From Leisingera sp. ANG59 (GTDB lineage: Bacteria; Pseudomonadota; Alphaproteobacteria; Rhodobacterales; Rhodobacteraceae): DNA of 60,570 bases. The stretch covers positions 1 through 60,570 of the forward strand of contig NZ_WLCM01000015.1 in NCBI RefSeq assembly GCF_013317235.1, in the 5' to 3' direction. Position numbers and translations under genes: made by a program. Every line of letters begins with the position of its first letter. Position 1 is the stretch's first letter. Shown here in pieces: positions 32,167-36,877 of this stretch. Below the pieces are notes generated by a model. It made no database searches. It worked only from the letters and a program-made list of their open reading frames with translations, and had not been told where the DNA came from.

Positions 32167-32192
32167 TTCCTGTCTCACCCCTTAATTGAACG

Positions 32193-32228
32193 CAACGCCC
32201 AGCCTGACCGCTGGGCGTTGTCATTTTT
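32193..32228 (+). terminator. Rho-independent terminator of ileS
   Basis: CAACGCCCAGC (32193-32203) pairs perfectly with GCTGGGCGTTG (32210-32220) around a 6-base loop, followed by TCATTTTT. It lies 27 bp after the ileS stop. Confidence 0.88.
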
Positions 32229-32326
32229 GCACTATTTCTGCGTCATTTTCCACACGTTATCCGCGAAATGCCTTGTGTTCTCTTGCAGCGGATTCCTCTA
32301 GATGTTGACCGGTTTTCCACAATTGG

Positions 32327-32341
32327 TTAAGAATTCGTTAA
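32327..32341 (+). promoter_or_regulatory. CtrA-type box upstream of the 32400 gene
   Basis: Perfect TTAA-N7-TTAA (TTAAGAATTCGTTAA), 58 bp before the start of the Ala/Pro-rich membrane protein gene. It matches the binding sequence of the alphaproteobacterial response regulator CtrA and sits in an AT-rich promoter stretch after the ileS terminator. Confidence 0.65.
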
Positions 32342-32399
32342 TTCCATGTAGATTTTTACGTCATTTCAAAAGATGGCATGGGGCAGGGGGCAATTTTCA

Positions 32400-33146
32400 A
32401 TGCTGAAGCTGAAAGCGGATGCACAGCCGGCGGCTGAGCCGGTCAAGGTGCGCAGCGCGGCAATCCGGATTGACGGGGTGTCAGCACCAAAGAATATCAA
32501 AATCGGTCTGGTCGCCGCCAGCACTGGGCCGGCCAAGGCAAAGCCCGCGGCCGGCGGAACTGCAAATGACGCCAAGCCCGGCAGTCCGGTCAGTGCTGCG
32601 AAACCCGCCTCCGCGACGCCGGAGCCCGCCATGGAGCCGCAGCAGTTTGCACCTTTGCCGGCGGAGAGTGGATCTGCGCTGCCAAAACTGGGCCTCGCCG
32701 CCGCAGGGCTGGCGGTCGCTTCAACGATGCTGCTCTACTTCCAGTTCGGCGGCCGTGCTCCGTCGGCGGATCAGCCGGTAGCGGCTGAGCAAGCCGTGGC
32801 AGAGCTTCCCGCAGGGGCCGCGGCTGCAGCGGGTCTTGAAGGCTCTGCTGCCAGCGGCGAGGATGCACTGGTTGCCCGCATCACCGAAGGCACGCTGGCC
32901 GCCCTGCGCAGCAAGCAGGCACAGCCCGCCGCGGCGGTTCAAGCTGCGCCGGCCGCGCCCGCCGAGGGCTCGGCGCTTTACAAGATGGTGCTGACCGCCG
33001 CCGCGCAAGGGCAGTCCGCGGCCTATATCGACCAGCTGGTGAACGGCGCCTATGAACGTCAGGAAATCACTGTTCCGGCCAGCCTGATCGGCGCTGACGG
33101 GCGGGTGGATACCGCAACGCTGCTGGCGCTGTTCGTCGGCAACTAA
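32400..33146 (+). CDS. Ala/Pro-rich single-pass membrane protein, unknown
   Basis: Protein of 248 residues: a cytoplasmic-looking tail rich in Ala, Pro and Lys (1-94) and one membrane helix at about 95-116. A low-complexity Ala-rich linker follows, then a compact C-terminal part (about 190-248) that is predicted to lie in the periplasm if the N terminus is inside. A CtrA-type box lies 58 bp upstream. It precedes the two LysM/solute-binding genes in the same direction by 135 bp. I do not recognise the family. The topology resembles a connector or anchoring protein. Confidence 0.75.
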   Translation: MLKLKADAQPAAEPVKVRSAAIRIDGVSAPKNIKIGLVAASTGPAKAKPAAGGTANDAKPGSPVSAAKPASATPEPAMEPQQFAPLPAESGSALPKLGLAAAGLAVASTMLLYFQFGGRAPSADQPVAAEQAVAELPAGAAAAAGLEGSAASGEDALVARITEGTLAALRSKQAQPAAAVQAAPAAPAEGSALYKMVLTAAAQGQSAAYIDQLVNGAYERQEITVPASLIGADGRVDTATLLALFVGN

Positions 33147-33281
33147 GACCCATCGGCTGCCGCGCCAGAAAGGCGCAGCCGCGCGGGCAGCAGTACTGTC
33201 CGCTGACCTCAACCAATAACAAAACAACAGGCGCCGCCTGCCAATTCTGCGGATCAGGCGCCGTACACTTCCGGGGGGATC

Positions 33282-34361
33282 ATGAAGACCTTTTTCGCTG
33301 CCGCTGCCATCGGGCTGTCCGGCCTCTTTGCCACGTCCGCCGCTGCTGAAACCTGCGGCGGCATCTATACCGTTCAGTCCGGCGACAGCCTGTCGGTGAT
33401 TGCCGACAAGCTCTACAAGGACGCGGGCAAGTGGAGCGCCATCCACAACCGCAACATCGACCAGATCGGTCCCAAGCCGGGTGCAATCCGGGTCGGTATG
33501 AAGCTCTCGCTGGCCTGCCTCGAAGGCCTGCCGCTGGGCCTGCCGGGCGGCAAGGACATCTCCGCCGCCGCCCCCGCATCCGCGGTGCCGGTCAAGGTGG
33601 CGCCGGGCAACGCGGCGGTGCGGCAGAAAATCAACCTGCTGACCGGTGATGACTACGCGCCGTTCACGTCCAAGGCGTCGCACAACGGCGGCCTGATCAC
33701 CGAGGTGGTGAATGCAGCGATGGCCCAGGCTGCCCCGGCTGAGGGCTACGCGATCCACTGGGTCAACGACTGGTCCTCGCATTTCGACCCGCTCCTGTCC
33801 AACGCGCTGCTGGACCTGGGTTTCCCCTGGTACAAGCCCGACTGCGAGACGATGCCGGACAGCTACCGCTGTCAGAATTTCCACTTCTCTGAACCGATGT
33901 TCGAAACCCTGATGCTGCTGTTCGTGCATAAGGACCGGCCGTTTGCGTTCACCAGCGACAGCGACATCGAGGGCAAGACCCTGTGCCGCCCCGCGGGTTA
34001 CCTGACCTTCGATCTGGATGAGCGCGGCCGCAACTGGATCGCCGAGAAGAAGATCACCCTGAAGCAGCCGCACAAGGTGAAGGACTGCTTTGACATGGTG
34101 GCCGCGGGGGAGGCGGACGCCGTGGCGATCAACGAATTCACCGGCCGCAGCGTGATGAAGGAGGCGGGCATTGCCGACCATTTCACCGTGCTGCCGCAGC
34201 CGCTGTCGGTGCTGGGCATCTATGTGGTGGTGCACAAGACCCATCCGCGCGCAGATGAGATGCTGGCGATGATCAACAAGGGCCTGCGGTCGATCCAGGA
34301 GGATGGCAGCTACCAGACCATCGTCGAAGACCACATGGCCCGGATCTGGGCCGGGTTCTGA
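33282..34361 (+). CDS. LysM domain fused to family-3 solute-binding domain (first paralogue)
   Basis: Protein of 359 residues: signal peptide at 1-22 (ending SAAA), LysM domain at about 28-75 (YTVQSGDSLSVIADKLY), linker, then a periplasmic amino-acid-type binding domain (SBP_bac_3) at about 110-355. Cys residues in KPDCETMPDSYRCQNFHF and LCRPAGY are shared with the next gene and may form disulfides. LysM should hold the binding domain on peptidoglycan rather than let it diffuse. No ABC permease or ATPase is nearby, so it may sense or sequester a ligand rather than import it. GGGGGGAT lies just before the ATG at 33282. The following paralogue starts 14 bp after its stop. Confidence 0.88.
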   Translation: MKTFFAAAAIGLSGLFATSAAAETCGGIYTVQSGDSLSVIADKLYKDAGKWSAIHNRNIDQIGPKPGAIRVGMKLSLACLEGLPLGLPGGKDISAAAPASAVPVKVAPGNAAVRQKINLLTGDDYAPFTSKASHNGGLITEVVNAAMAQAAPAEGYAIHWVNDWSSHFDPLLSNALLDLGFPWYKPDCETMPDSYRCQNFHFSEPMFETLMLLFVHKDRPFAFTSDSDIEGKTLCRPAGYLTFDLDERGRNWIAEKKITLKQPHKVKDCFDMVAAGEADAVAINEFTGRSVMKEAGIADHFTVLPQPLSVLGIYVVVHKTHPRADEMLAMINKGLRSIQEDGSYQTIVEDHMARIWAGF

Positions 34362-34375
34362 GGGAGGATGCCTGT

Positions 34376-35398
34376 ATGAGACGGCTTTTCTCACGCCTCT
34401 TCCAGCTGGCTGCCCTGTTCACCCTGGCGCCGGCTGCGGCCTGGGCGATTTGCGACGTGGACTACGTGGCGCAGCCCGGGGACTCCCTGTTCACGATCGC
34501 AGAAACCCATTACGGCGACCGCAACCGCTGGACCATGGTTTACTACGCCAACCAGAAACTGCTGGCCGGTGCCACCGTGCTGCCGGGGCGCAAACTGTTC
34601 ATCCCTTGCATCACTGGCGCCACCGCGCCGGACGCCACCCCGCTGCGCCAGGAAAAGGCGGAGCTGACGCTGCTCACCGGCAGCGGCTACGGCCCCTTCA
34701 CCGACCGCAGCCTTCCCGGGCAGGGGATGGTAACGGAGCTCATCAACGCGGCGCTGGAACTGGCGCCCGCGCCGGTCAGCTATTCGGTCAGCTGGGAGGA
34801 CGACTGGTCCAAACACCTCTTCCCGATGCTGGACAAGAAGGAGTTCGACATGGGCTTCCCCTGGCTCAAGCCCGACTGCGCGGCTGAGCCGGACAACGAA
34901 CGCTGCGTGAACTTCCATTTCTCCGAGCCGGTAATGACCATGCCGATCATGCTGTTTGTGCGGGCCGGCGGCGGGTTTGAATACACCGGGGACGCAGACG
35001 TCGAAGGCAAGACAATTTGCCGCCCGGCGGGCTACTTCACCCACGACCTGAACCGCCCGGGCCGGCGCTGGCTGGCAGATGAGAAGATCTCGCTGGTTCA
35101 GCCCGCCACCCCGGCGGACTGTTTTCGCATGGTTGCCGACGGCCAGGTTGATGCCGCAGCTGTGAACCTGTTCCTTGGCGCCAACACGATCGTTGCCGAA
35201 GACCTGCGCGACACTGTGGTGCCGCTGGAAAAGCCTCTGTCGGAGGAGGGCCTGCATGTGGTGATTTCCAAGCGCCATTGGCGCGGCACCACTCATCTCT
35301 ACCGGATCAACGCGGGTCTTCAGAAGTTGCGGGACAGCGGCCGGTTCGAGGAGATCATGTCACGCCACCTGGAGCTGTTCTGGGCGCAGCTGCAGTAA
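34376..35398 (+). CDS. LysM domain fused to family-3 solute-binding domain (second paralogue)
   Basis: Protein of 340 residues with the same architecture as its upstream neighbour: signal peptide at 1-24, LysM at about 29-80 (YVAQPGDSLFTIAETHYGD), binding domain at about 95-340. Shared landmarks are LLTGSGYGPFTD, MGFPWLKPDC, NFHFSEP, ICRPAGYFTHDLNRPGRRW and DCFRMVADGQVDAAAVN. The two proteins have clearly diverged, so the duplication is old. AGGGAGG precedes the ATG. It belongs to the same transcript as the first copy, separated by 14 bp. Confidence 0.88.
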   Translation: MRRLFSRLFQLAALFTLAPAAAWAICDVDYVAQPGDSLFTIAETHYGDRNRWTMVYYANQKLLAGATVLPGRKLFIPCITGATAPDATPLRQEKAELTLLTGSGYGPFTDRSLPGQGMVTELINAALELAPAPVSYSVSWEDDWSKHLFPMLDKKEFDMGFPWLKPDCAAEPDNERCVNFHFSEPVMTMPIMLFVRAGGGFEYTGDADVEGKTICRPAGYFTHDLNRPGRRWLADEKISLVQPATPADCFRMVADGQVDAAAVNLFLGANTIVAEDLRDTVVPLEKPLSEEGLHVVISKRHWRGTTHLYRINAGLQKLRDSGRFEEIMSRHLELFWAQLQ

Positions 35399-35410
35399 CC
35401 GGCAAAAAAG

Positions 35411-35761
35411 TCAGGCCGTCAGCGACCTGGCCTCTTCATAGCCGTGAAAGGCTGCCTTGGTCTCACCCGGAATGATCCGGTCTCCCGGCCAGGCGCGCTG
35501 CAGCATCAGGTGTTCCGCCAGCACGGCATTTTCGTGAAACACTTCTTCGGCGGACCCGGGCGTTACCTGTACAGGAGTGTCCCAGACGGGGTCGCCGCCG
35601 TCCGGATGCAGGCTATCCTGCGCGTGCTCCTCCTGTCCGCGCGGCGTGTTGTCGGCGGATTCGCTTTTGTCCGGATCGTCAGAGCGGACAACGGGCCGGG
35701 CGGTCAGGAAGCCGCGGTTCGGCTTGATAGGATCTACACGTCCTGAAACTGGTATAAACAT
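35411..35761 (-). CDS. Small protein of 116 residues, unknown, CtrA-box promoter
   Basis: Hydrophilic, acidic protein of 116 residues without signal peptide or membrane helix. It begins MFIPVSGRVDP; its first 21 coding bases are nearly identical to those of the second small gene at 35892-36245 (MFAPVS). It has two CtrA-type boxes 36 and 61 bp upstream. It converges on the LysM/solute-binding pair, its stop lying 13 bp from theirs. Coding status rests on the conserved start, the dedicated promoter boxes and a frame with good codon bias. No function can be assigned. Confidence 0.65.
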   Translation of the reverse strand: MFIPVSGRVDPIKPNRGFLTARPVVRSDDPDKSESADNTPRGQEEHAQDSLHPDGGDPVWDTPVQVTPGSAEEVFHENAVLAEHLMLQRAWPGDRIIPGETKAAFHGYEEARSLTA

Positions 35762-35796
35762 TACAGAAGGTCCTTCGCAGAGGCATTGAACCGATC

Positions 35797-35811
35797 TTAA
35801 AGCGATTTTAA
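35797..35811 (-). promoter_or_regulatory. CtrA-type box, proximal
   Basis: Perfect TTAA-N7-TTAA followed by C (TTAAAGCGATTTTAAC), 36 bp upstream of the 35761 start. With the neighbouring box it forms a tandem pair, typical of strongly CtrA-regulated promoters. Confidence 0.65.
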
Positions 35812-35821
35812 CACATCAGGC

Positions 35822-35836
35822 TTAACAGCCGGTTAA
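35822..35836 (-). promoter_or_regulatory. CtrA-type box, distal
   Basis: Perfect TTAA-N7-TTAA followed by C (TTAACAGCCGGTTAAC), 61 bp upstream of the 35761 start. It lies 25 bp (centre to centre) from the proximal box, so both would face about the same side of the helix. Confidence 0.65.
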
Positions 35837-35891
35837 CGCATTCCGCCGGTGACTTCTGATGCCGTGCCGGCGGCCCGGCTCCGGCGGGCGC

Positions 35892-36245
35892 TCAGCTGAG
35901 GATCCGCTGCACCTTGGCATATTTCGCTTCTGCAGCCAGCGCGCTGACCGGCTTGGGGCCGGCCTGGCAGCCATTCATCAGATCCTGATAGAAAGCATCC
36001 ATGTCAATGCCGTTTGCCGGACGCGGCTCCAGCGATTCCGCCCGGGCGGCTTCGCGGGCCGGGCCGATGTACTGGGACGTCAGGGCGTCCGCGGCGCTGC
36101 CGGCCGGCAGGGCGTCCCGGGCCGGGGTCATGCTGCTGACCAGAGAGGCGTCAGCGGATGCACGGTCTGCGGGGCTGGAGGCCGGTGCCTGGATCCGCTG
36201 CATGGTGGTATAGAAACCGGCAGTGCTGGAAACTGGTGCAAACAT
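35892..36245 (-). CDS. Small protein of 117 residues, unknown, CtrA-box promoter
   Basis: Protein of 117 residues beginning MFAPVSSTAGF, without signal peptide or membrane helix. It is Ala/Ser-rich in the middle, with a more ordered C-terminal part (about 78-117: DMDAFYQDLMNGCQAG, AAEAKYAKVQRIL). The beginning matches the sister gene downstream on the same strand (MFIPVS); the rest differs. A perfect CtrA-type box lies 80 bp upstream. Function unknown; it may be a secreted or envelope-apparatus substrate given the short conserved N terminus, but this is speculation. Confidence 0.65.
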   Translation of the reverse strand: MFAPVSSTAGFYTTMQRIQAPASSPADRASADASLVSSMTPARDALPAGSAADALTSQYIGPAREAARAESLEPRPANGIDMDAFYQDLMNGCQAGPKPVSALAAEAKYAKVQRILS

Positions 36246-36324
36246 TTTATTGACCCTTAGCTCTGTTCTTGAAATTCACTTTAGTAGAATTTGAGACAAC
36301 CTGGTGAGGAACTCTTAGCGCTGG

Positions 36325-36339
36325 TTAACAAGGCGTTAA
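36325..36339 (-). promoter_or_regulatory. CtrA-type box upstream of the 36245 gene
   Basis: Perfect TTAA-N7-TTAA followed by C (TTAACAAGGCGTTAAC), 80 bp upstream of the small gene and 86 bp from the divergent ogt start, so it could also influence ogt. Confidence 0.65.
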
Positions 36340-36424: not shown

Positions 36425-36877
36425 ATGATATCAGCAAGCCTTGAGACGCCCGTCGGACCGCTCAGCGTGTCAGAGCGGGACGGCGCTATCGTGCGGCTGG
36501 ACTGGACGGCTGAGGCCAGCGGCCAGACAGCGCTGCTGACGCGGGCGCTGGAGCAGCTGCGTGCCTATTTCGCAGGGGAACTTACGGTGTTCGACCTGCC
36601 GCTGCAGGTGGCGGGATCGGATTTTCAGCGCGCAGTCTGCGACGCGATGCTGGCAATCCCCTTTGGCGAAACCCGTACCTATGGTGAAATTGCGAAGGAT
36701 CTGGGGGCGCCGCCGCAGCCGGTCGGCAATGCCTGCGGCGGCAACCCGATCCCGGTGATCATCCCGTGCCACCGGGTGCTCGGCGCCTCCGGGCTGGGCG
36801 GATTTTCCGGCAAGGGCGGGGTGGAGACCAAGGTGGCGCTTCTGAAACACGAAGGCGCCGCCAGCCTGCTGATCTGA
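36425..36877 (+). CDS. ogt: Methylated-DNA-[protein]-cysteine S-methyltransferase
   Basis: Suicide DNA-repair protein of 150 residues that removes alkyl groups from O6 of guanine. The acceptor Cys lies in IPVIIPCHRVLG at about residue 116, preceded by the Asn-hinge region GNACGGNP. The DNA-binding helix-turn-helix is at about 75-98 (GETRTYGEIAKDLG). GGAGGAG lies just before the ATG at 36425. Single gene; no Ada regulator domain is attached, which fits Ogt. Confidence 0.95.
   Translation: MISASLETPVGPLSVSERDGAIVRLDWTAEASGQTALLTRALEQLRAYFAGELTVFDLPLQVAGSDFQRAVCDAMLAIPFGETRTYGEIAKDLGAPPQPVGNACGGNPIPVIIPCHRVLGASGLGGFSGKGGVETKVALLKHEGAASLLI

Follow-up and report, generated by a model that had tools for sequence, protein, structure and literature searches.

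What do four copies of a cell-cycle regulator's recognition sequence control, and in which direction, when they crowd into 4 kb of an otherwise box-free stretch of DNA? A stretch of 60,570 bases from Leisingera sp. ANG59 (NZ_WLCM01000015.1, hereafter the window) carries exact matches to TTAA-N7-TTAA, the recognition sequence of CtrA (PMC6180460), at positions 32327, 35797, 35822 and 36325, and none elsewhere. The boxes lie before three putative transcription units, namely a membrane protein gene (memb) with two genes for solute-binding proteins (sbp1 and sbp2), and two small genes (smA and smB).

A probably repressive box beside putatively activating ones

A first-pass annotation of this DNA had reported four perfect boxes within 4 kb and no others in 60 kb, upstream of genes at 32400, 35761 and 36245 with two LysM/solute-binding genes between them. 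Our recount returned the same four places, and the genes are laid out as described. Chance had been estimated to yield about 0.05 such boxes, well under one, and 100 dinucleotide-preserving shuffles of the window give a similar mean of 0.03, with no shuffle containing four.

The annotation had further cast the boxes as drivers of all three genes. We favor a different arrangement, to which we assign a probability of roughly 0.58, wherein four CtrA sites control three transcription units with opposite expected signs. From the computed boxes, their conservation, the fixed spacings and the solute-binding domains, we infer CtrA binding, operon structure, transcription starts, the sign of regulation and protein function as follows. 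Phosphorylated CtrA (CtrA-P) would bind over the -10 element and start of a sigma-70 promoter and repress memb-sbp1-sbp2, and the boxes before smA and smB would lie where CtrA activates. ‘Driving’ is therefore probably better replaced by ‘controlling’, with signs that differ between the units.

Table 1. Coordinates of the boxes, promoter elements and genes in the window
Feature	Position	Strand	Remarks
Terminator-like hairpin behind ileS	32192..32221	+	12-pair stem; consensus match only
-35-like TTGACC	32305..32310	+	16 bases before box 1
CtrA box 1 (TTAAGAATTCGTTAA)	32327..32341	+	over predicted -10/+1 region of memb; core 8/8 invariant in 14 loci
-10-like AAGAAT inside box 1	32329..32334	+	9/12 match, spacer 18 from TTGACC (promoter scan)
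memb, single-pass membrane protein, 248 residues	32400..33146	+	conserved C-terminal module, residues 188-246
sbp1, LysM-like + SBP_bac_3 periplasmic protein, 359 residues	33282..34361	+	Pfam
sbp2, LysM-like + SBP_bac_3 protein, 340 residues	34376..35398	+	family matches
smA, 116 residues	35411..35761	-	N-terminal 41 residues strongly conserved
CtrA box 2	35797..35811	-	-14 of smA start predicted at 35797
CtrA box 3	35822..35836	-	exactly 25 bases upstream of box 2; -39 of same predicted smA start
smB, 117 residues	35892..36245	-	no confident fold, mean pLDDT (predicted local distance difference test) 52
CtrA box 4	36325..36339	-	upstream of smB; 12/13 smB loci; core 8/8, spacer 0/7 invariant (12 aligned loci)
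ogt, methylated-DNA methyltransferase	36425..36877	+	divergent neighbor of smB; box 4 also upstream of ogt

Box cores are conserved across relatives

We compared 63 titled loci with an sbp1 relative, 29 of which also hold a memb relative and 34 of which do not. An exact box precedes memb at 25 of the 29 loci, which comprise Leisingera-type sequences, two from Phaeobacter, Pseudophaeobacter- and Roseobacter-named ones, Epibacterium, Tritonibacter and two uncultured Rhodobacteraceae. Because the 34 loci that lack memb hold an exact box only in L067, at a distance of 6.5 kb from sbp1, we conclude that the box travels with memb and not with sbp1. Thus, the recurrence at orthologous promoters in related genera, which the first-pass annotation had named as a test of its proposal, is found for memb. 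For the small genes the boxes are likewise kept, with at least one exact box before smA at 10 of 11 loci (L051 is the exception) and an exact box before smB at 12 of 13 (L072 is the exception), but only within Leisingera and close relatives, since these genes were not detected elsewhere at the sensitivity of our search.

Alignments of the three promoters reveal footprints that coincide with the half sites. Invariant positions make up 8/8 of the core, 3/7 of the spacer and 36/115 of the remaining columns at memb (14 loci; Fisher p = 2e-4), 8/8, 0/7 and 33/115 at smB (12 loci; p = 6e-5), and 12/16, 0/14 and 22/100 at smA (12 loci; p = 2e-5), although these tests ignore the relatedness of the loci, which counts against taking the p values at face value. 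The smB alignment omits L053 and L072, whose matches stop short of the start. Among the stretches L172-L177, four of which hold a gene for the membrane module and two of which (L176 and L177) hold only a LysM match, there are zero exact boxes and one match with a single mismatch (L175).

Two loci in this sample deserve separate mention. The record that contains L072 is titled Nocardioides marinus DP1N28-1, and its locus is of the Leisingera type (ileS 94% and phosphatidylcholine synthase 92% identical), so that the title is probably a mislabel. In Pseudophaeobacter leonis (L102, 9170-9775), memb is apparently interrupted and no exact box is present.

Promoter geometry points to repression of memb

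The expected sign of control at memb follows from where box 1 lies. Taking TTGAC as the -35 element, at -36 to -31, would put the first base of the box at -14, so that it spans the -10 element and the transcription start, which promoter geometry places at about 32341. In Caulobacter, promoter P1 of ctrA is repressed via a TTAA at -14; a full site that falls at -39 relative to P2 and at -14 relative to P3 likely activates the former and represses the latter (PMC4287350). More generally, activating CtrA sites lie near -35, whereas repressing half sites overlap the -10 element (cited in PMC6180460). Because box 1 would sit at -14 over the -10 element and the start, as repressing sites do in Caulobacter, it looks repressive, and on these grounds CtrA probably represses memb-sbp1-sbp2. 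It is this predicted overlap with the -10 element of a conserved TTGAC promoter that argues against a driving role at all three genes.

We surveyed 34 memb loci, with the start codons of some anchored by hand and with L102 and L138 excluded due to a broken or unanchored memb. TTGAC precedes the box in all 28 promoters that have one, at a distance of 16 bases in 27 and of 17 in the other, and the six box-less promoters examined also have TTGAC followed by a -10-like hexamer (by eye). Among the 31 boxes of the genome, the TTGAC-N16-box arrangement occurs only once, at memb.

The most serious competing explanation, which we nevertheless consider unlikely, is that CtrA switches on every one of the three units, memb-sbp1-sbp2 too, and that for the latter RNA polymerase uses a -10 element downstream of the box, such as TAGATT at 32349, TTGAC being a relic. 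Transcripts in P. inhibens mostly fall upon loss of the CtrA phosphorelay (PMC12363192), and Caulobacter promoters with a full TTAA-N7-TTAA are expressed in step with CtrA levels (PMC4287350), as this explanation would have it. However, a relic would drift, whereas 27 of 28 promoters keep TTGAC precisely 16 bases ahead of the box, the six box-less loci examined retain it as well, and the pairing with a box at this distance occurs nowhere else in the genome.

Several observations weigh against repression by CtrA as the explanation for box 1. First, the -10 hexamer AAGAAT is weak, and the one promoter match of this kind that we found compares with 0.7 expected by chance. Second, the CtrA repressor class of Caulobacter consists of half sites, whereas the memb box is a full site. 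Third, CtrA is predominantly an activator in P. inhibens (PMC12363192). Fourth, an exact box is missing from four of the 29 memb loci (L064, L069, L094 and L102) and from three further ones (L137, L139 and L150). As regards genes that respond in the opposite direction, siderophore clusters and motA2 are among those that rise in P. inhibens mutants, and about half of the changed genes rise in stationary D. shibae.

The smA and smB boxes occupy predicted activating positions

At all six loci where both smA boxes are exact, the window included, they are spaced by 25 bases. This distance equals 39 minus 14, and so both boxes fit a single predicted start at 35797. By analogy with the sites discussed above, the upstream box (at about -39) would be placed to activate smA, and the downstream box (at about -14) could damp its expression. 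At smB, a conserved TAA is located seven bases after the box; the box would lie at about -34 to -39 where CtrA activates, which fits activation. Between box 4 and smB (36245-36290) there is also a conserved TCAAATT...TAAAGTGA-type block, which is partly an inverted repeat.

Both small genes behave as coding sequences, with ratios of nonsynonymous to synonymous substitution rates (Ka/Ks) of 0.23-0.47 in 12 comparisons. Protein searches recovered 20 matches for smA including its own, the named ones being from Leisingera and one Rhodobacteraceae symbiont, and 25 relatives of smB including its own. Among 149 genomes, each representing another genus, smB was found only in its own genome, and a search of the PDB with smB returned three matches with E values of 0.38 or worse. 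No Pfam, NCBIfam or PHROGs match was obtained for memb, smA or smB; given the lack of PHROGs matches, we set aside the idea that the small genes derive from a phage or gene transfer agent, and no gene transfer agent link was seen at this locus.

It is conceivable, but improbable, that the divergent DNA-repair gene ogt is under the control of box 4, by itself or jointly with smB, and that the cluster is in part a CtrA-controlled DNA-repair switch. The box ends 85 bases before the ogt start, and dprA, described as a DNA repair gene, goes down when the phosphorelay is mutated in either of two roseobacters (PMC12363192). However, loci of Epibacterium and Tritonibacter (L070 and L071) have ogt, no smB by tblastn and no box there. 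These two loci led us to reject the idea that box 4 serves ogt alone, and ogt is probably not its target at all.

The regulator is very probably CtrA

The identification of these boxes as CtrA-type in the first-pass annotation is favored by several lines of evidence, one of which is the conservation described above. Another is the spacing between half sites. TTAA-N7-TTAA occurs 31 times in the 5.33-megabase genome, a raw count that is unremarkable because the reversed control AATT-N7-AATT is nearly as common (27). When gaps of six to eight bases are considered, however, N7 accounts for 31/49 of the TTAA matches in this genome and 581/919 in 21 Leisingera genomes, which are related and hence not independent, as compared with 27/86 and 770/2055, respectively, for AATT. 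From this excess we conclude that a 7-base gap between the half sites is favored, as expected for CtrA.

Furthermore, a single gene in the genome exceeds the cut-off of the Rhodobacterales CtrA model, with 430 bits against a threshold of 350 and 156 bits for the runner-up. Boxes elsewhere in the genome also mark suitable genes. One lies 16 bases ahead of a gene that matches CckA best among NCBIfam families (173 bits against a CckA cut-off of 1000, the scored piece being cut at the end of the locus), and others precede motB and a divL-like gene for a PAS-only protein, which we named by reading its sequence and not from any match to a family. For many of the 31 boxes, no gene obviously starts close by. 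A comparative study predicted, for one Rhodobacterales group, that cckA and a kinase-less divL are under CtrA (PMC2877005), and divL1 is repressed in ctrA and cckA mutants of P. inhibens (PMC12363192).

The sites share sequence and spacing with the full CtrA site of Caulobacter, in a genome that has a CtrA gene and further sites at cckA-like, divL-like and motB genes. Searches for this site have also been made in Dinoroseobacter shibae, and it has been studied in Rhodobacter sphaeroides. Some of the predicted targets are proteins not mentioned in the parts of the CtrA literature that we examined. Taken together, these observations make it very probable that the four boxes are CtrA sites.

That the boxes are bound not by CtrA but by a different response regulator of identical sequence preference is a remote prospect. 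The genome does encode many response regulators (43 matches of all strengths to the CtrA model), but only one gene surpasses the cut-off, and the boxes at cckA-like, divL-like and motB genes are those expected for CtrA. The probability that the cluster arose by chance in AT-rich intergenic DNA is close to negligible: although the reversed pattern is about equally common genome-wide, and although clusters of three within 4,013 base pairs arise in 152 of 20,000 random placements (approximately 0.8%) once boxes less than 60 base pairs apart are merged (28 sites), the box cores are kept while the spacers change, the boxes recur in several genera, and four of 31 randomly placed sites never fell within 4,013 base pairs in 20,000 trials. 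We rejected this origin because the promoter footprints of memb and smB speak strongly against it.

A GANTC site in relatives recalls the ctrA P1 promoter

Ten loci outside Leisingera (L056, L057, L059-L063, L066, L136 and L178; nine are distinct) have a GANTC whose first base is exactly 14 bases ahead of the memb box, in the form GATTC at seven and GAATC at three. Pairwise identity among these loci is as low as 47%, and the invariant columns of the ten promoters comprise TTGACG, GA-TC, G+TTAA, the spacer AA, the second TTAA and two single bases. Hardly any invariant columns fall outside TTGACG, GANTC and the box, a pattern that we counted in favor of a switch operated by CtrA and GcrA. All seven genomes tested encode GcrA. 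All seven also contain a RAMA domain, which was found in the control set only in Caulobacter and which we take to be part of CcrM; the presence of CcrM was judged from this domain alone.

The arrangement resembles that of Caulobacter ctrA P1, which has GANTC at -28/-29 and TTAA at -14 (PMC4287350), and which is activated by GcrA and repressed by CtrA (PMC4287350; PMC8116508). The ten loci and ctrA P1 have in common the -35-like element, a GANTC and a TTAA that would lie at about -28 and -14, respectively, and equal GANTC-TTAA spacing. They differ in that the memb promoters carry a full box instead of a half site and precede an envelope operon instead of ctrA. In such Phaeobacter/Pseudophaeobacter-type relatives, GANTC might let GcrA and CcrM methylation switch the memb promoter on during replication. 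We consider the odds of a GcrA/CcrM-timed switch at these ten loci to be even.

Two sets of observations are to be set against it. The ten loci are related, and L062 equals L178 over the 75 columns compared. In addition, no GANTC is present within the 26 bases before the memb box of the window, and by eye none occurs between TTGAC and the box in 13 other Leisingera promoters. The GcrA half of the switch therefore does not apply to this genome, whose promoter is not a full member of the ctrA P1 type; Leisingera would keep the CtrA half without GANTC. In Tritonibacter (L071), GANTC is two bases further upstream, and none is found at that place in L070, L074, L076 or the Leisingera loci.

One paper suggests that methylation state may not govern genes to any great extent in this order (PMC8116508), and a conserved promoter with ctrA P1 spacing before an envelope operon would be a counter-example. 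The memb promoter would also serve as a concrete reporter of cell-cycle phase in roseobacters.

A putative peptidoglycan-associated envelope operon

We place the memb start at 32400 since a longer upstream frame is not kept in all species. The protein consists of an N-terminal stretch, one membrane-type helix (residues 94-116), a linker and a compact C-terminal module, for which the structural model has block pLDDT values of about 90-96 in most of its length and lower values at the very end. Profile searches and Foldseek (best E value 8.4) identified no relative of known structure for this module, and Ka/Ks values for memb are 0.14-0.25 in six comparisons.

The next two genes had been described as encoding LysM/solute-binding proteins. 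The solute-binding part stands for sbp1, with a SBP_bac_3 score of 26.9 bits just over the cut-off of 26.4, and sbp2 scores 23.0 bits, under that cut-off. The LysM call draws on several weak matches, because the Pfam LysM score of sbp1 (19.4 bits) falls just under the curated cut-off of 20.9; sbp2 matches LysM-bearing families in other libraries only and not in Pfam, and both proteins match LysM-bearing phage families in PHROGs. In sequence they share SBP_bac_3 with the family 3 solute-binding proteins of ABC transporters, but they differ in having an N-terminal LysM-like domain and in forming a tandem pair, with no permease or ATPase gene adjoining them in the window.

A search with the membrane module produced 38 matches in 37 of 295 genomes, and 28 loci (L136-L163) were examined further. 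At 23 Rhodobacteraceae loci the module belongs to a single-pass protein that ends in LysM (LysM by eye), and no exact box precedes any of these fusion genes. Such proteins (e.g. L141-L149) share the C-terminal module of memb beside a LysM domain, whereas memb itself has none and LysM-like domains are found in the next genes here. That module and LysM are fused in some species and encoded by neighboring genes in others supports a peptidoglycan-associated function. Mutual exclusion of memb and the LysM fusion is compatible with the data, but the pattern is not clean and we make no such claim.

With regard to the proposal in the first-pass annotation of a CtrA-controlled peptidoglycan-associated system, the CtrA sites are supported and the peptidoglycan role is plausible given the LysM-like domains and the module-LysM fusions, but ‘driving’ is not upheld. 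The operon would yield an inner-membrane protein with a single transmembrane pass and two LysM-like solute-binding proteins of the periplasm, unaccompanied by genes for an ABC permease or ATPase, and we tentatively suggest, at somewhat less than even odds, that its function is peptidoglycan-anchored sensing or scaffolding. If so, the complex would probably be made when CtrA-P is low. We encountered no description of this operon or of its control in the literature searched, which consisted mostly of open papers without their supplementary tables.

The window neighbors of sbp1 and sbp2 include ileS (named by sequence reading and not by family search), memb, smA, smB, ogt and a phosphatidylcholine synthase gene. 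The terminator-like hairpin behind ileS, one of six such sites in the stretch where 3.9 are expected, would set the memb promoter apart from the gene before it.

A second boxed operon with LysM-like solute-binding genes

On another contig of this genome (C69; L110, 779-8409), a second operon holds genes for a serine/threonine kinase, two LysM-like solute-binding proteins, FHA and PP2C proteins, and a protein with a weak dynamin-like match. The same gene set with two dynamin genes is found on a plasmid of Leisingera sp. S132, and a rearranged version is found on a plasmid of Ruegeria conchae; L110, L179 and L180 thus look like a plasmid-type cassette of kinase, LysM-like solute-binding, FHA, PP2C and dynamin-like genes. 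The kinase occurs in four of ten Leisingera genomes searched (83-94% identical), and five more have only a kinase that is approximately 40-44% identical. In this genome and in all four of the others (L181-L184), the kinase gene has an exact box 75 bases ahead of its start codon; the S132 plasmid also has a box and is probably the same record as L183, and the R. conchae operon has none. Both LysM-like solute-binding operons of this genome are therefore marked by a box. PADLOC matches of the kinase, to 34 families, look like generic kinase-domain matches.

A broader hypothesis, which we regard as doubtful, is that roseobacters use a replication-timed, ctrA P1-like promoter outside ctrA (switched on by GcrA/CcrM and off by CtrA-P) for a peptidoglycan-anchored solute-sensing complex, together with a CtrA-wired paralogous operon of kinase, FHA, PP2C and LysM-like solute-binding genes, such that CtrA would link the motile/sessile cell cycle with the way a cell senses its own wall. 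Unnamed families of LysM-like solute-binding proteins and membrane modules would then come under a master regulator.

Boxes at other loci

Elsewhere in this genome (L002, 1501-1537; C1:380810-380846), three overlapping boxes are formed by four TTAA at 11-base steps, approximately 100 bases behind a tRNA-Pro(TGG) gene and with no plausible gene start within 250 bases. Triples of the same form are present in at least two other Leisingera genomes (G149 C30:322164-322200 and G150 C1:615486-615522). A box in L112 (2042) lies 31 bases before a gene read by eye as encoding a Hint-domain protein, and Hint-like proteins were also seen by eye near boxes in L119 and L122; the L112 and L119 proteins have no NCBIfam match. 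Finally, an exact box is located 44 bases before the start of a gene in L117 (2027-3627) for a protein that combines a caspase domain with a peptidoglycan-binding one.

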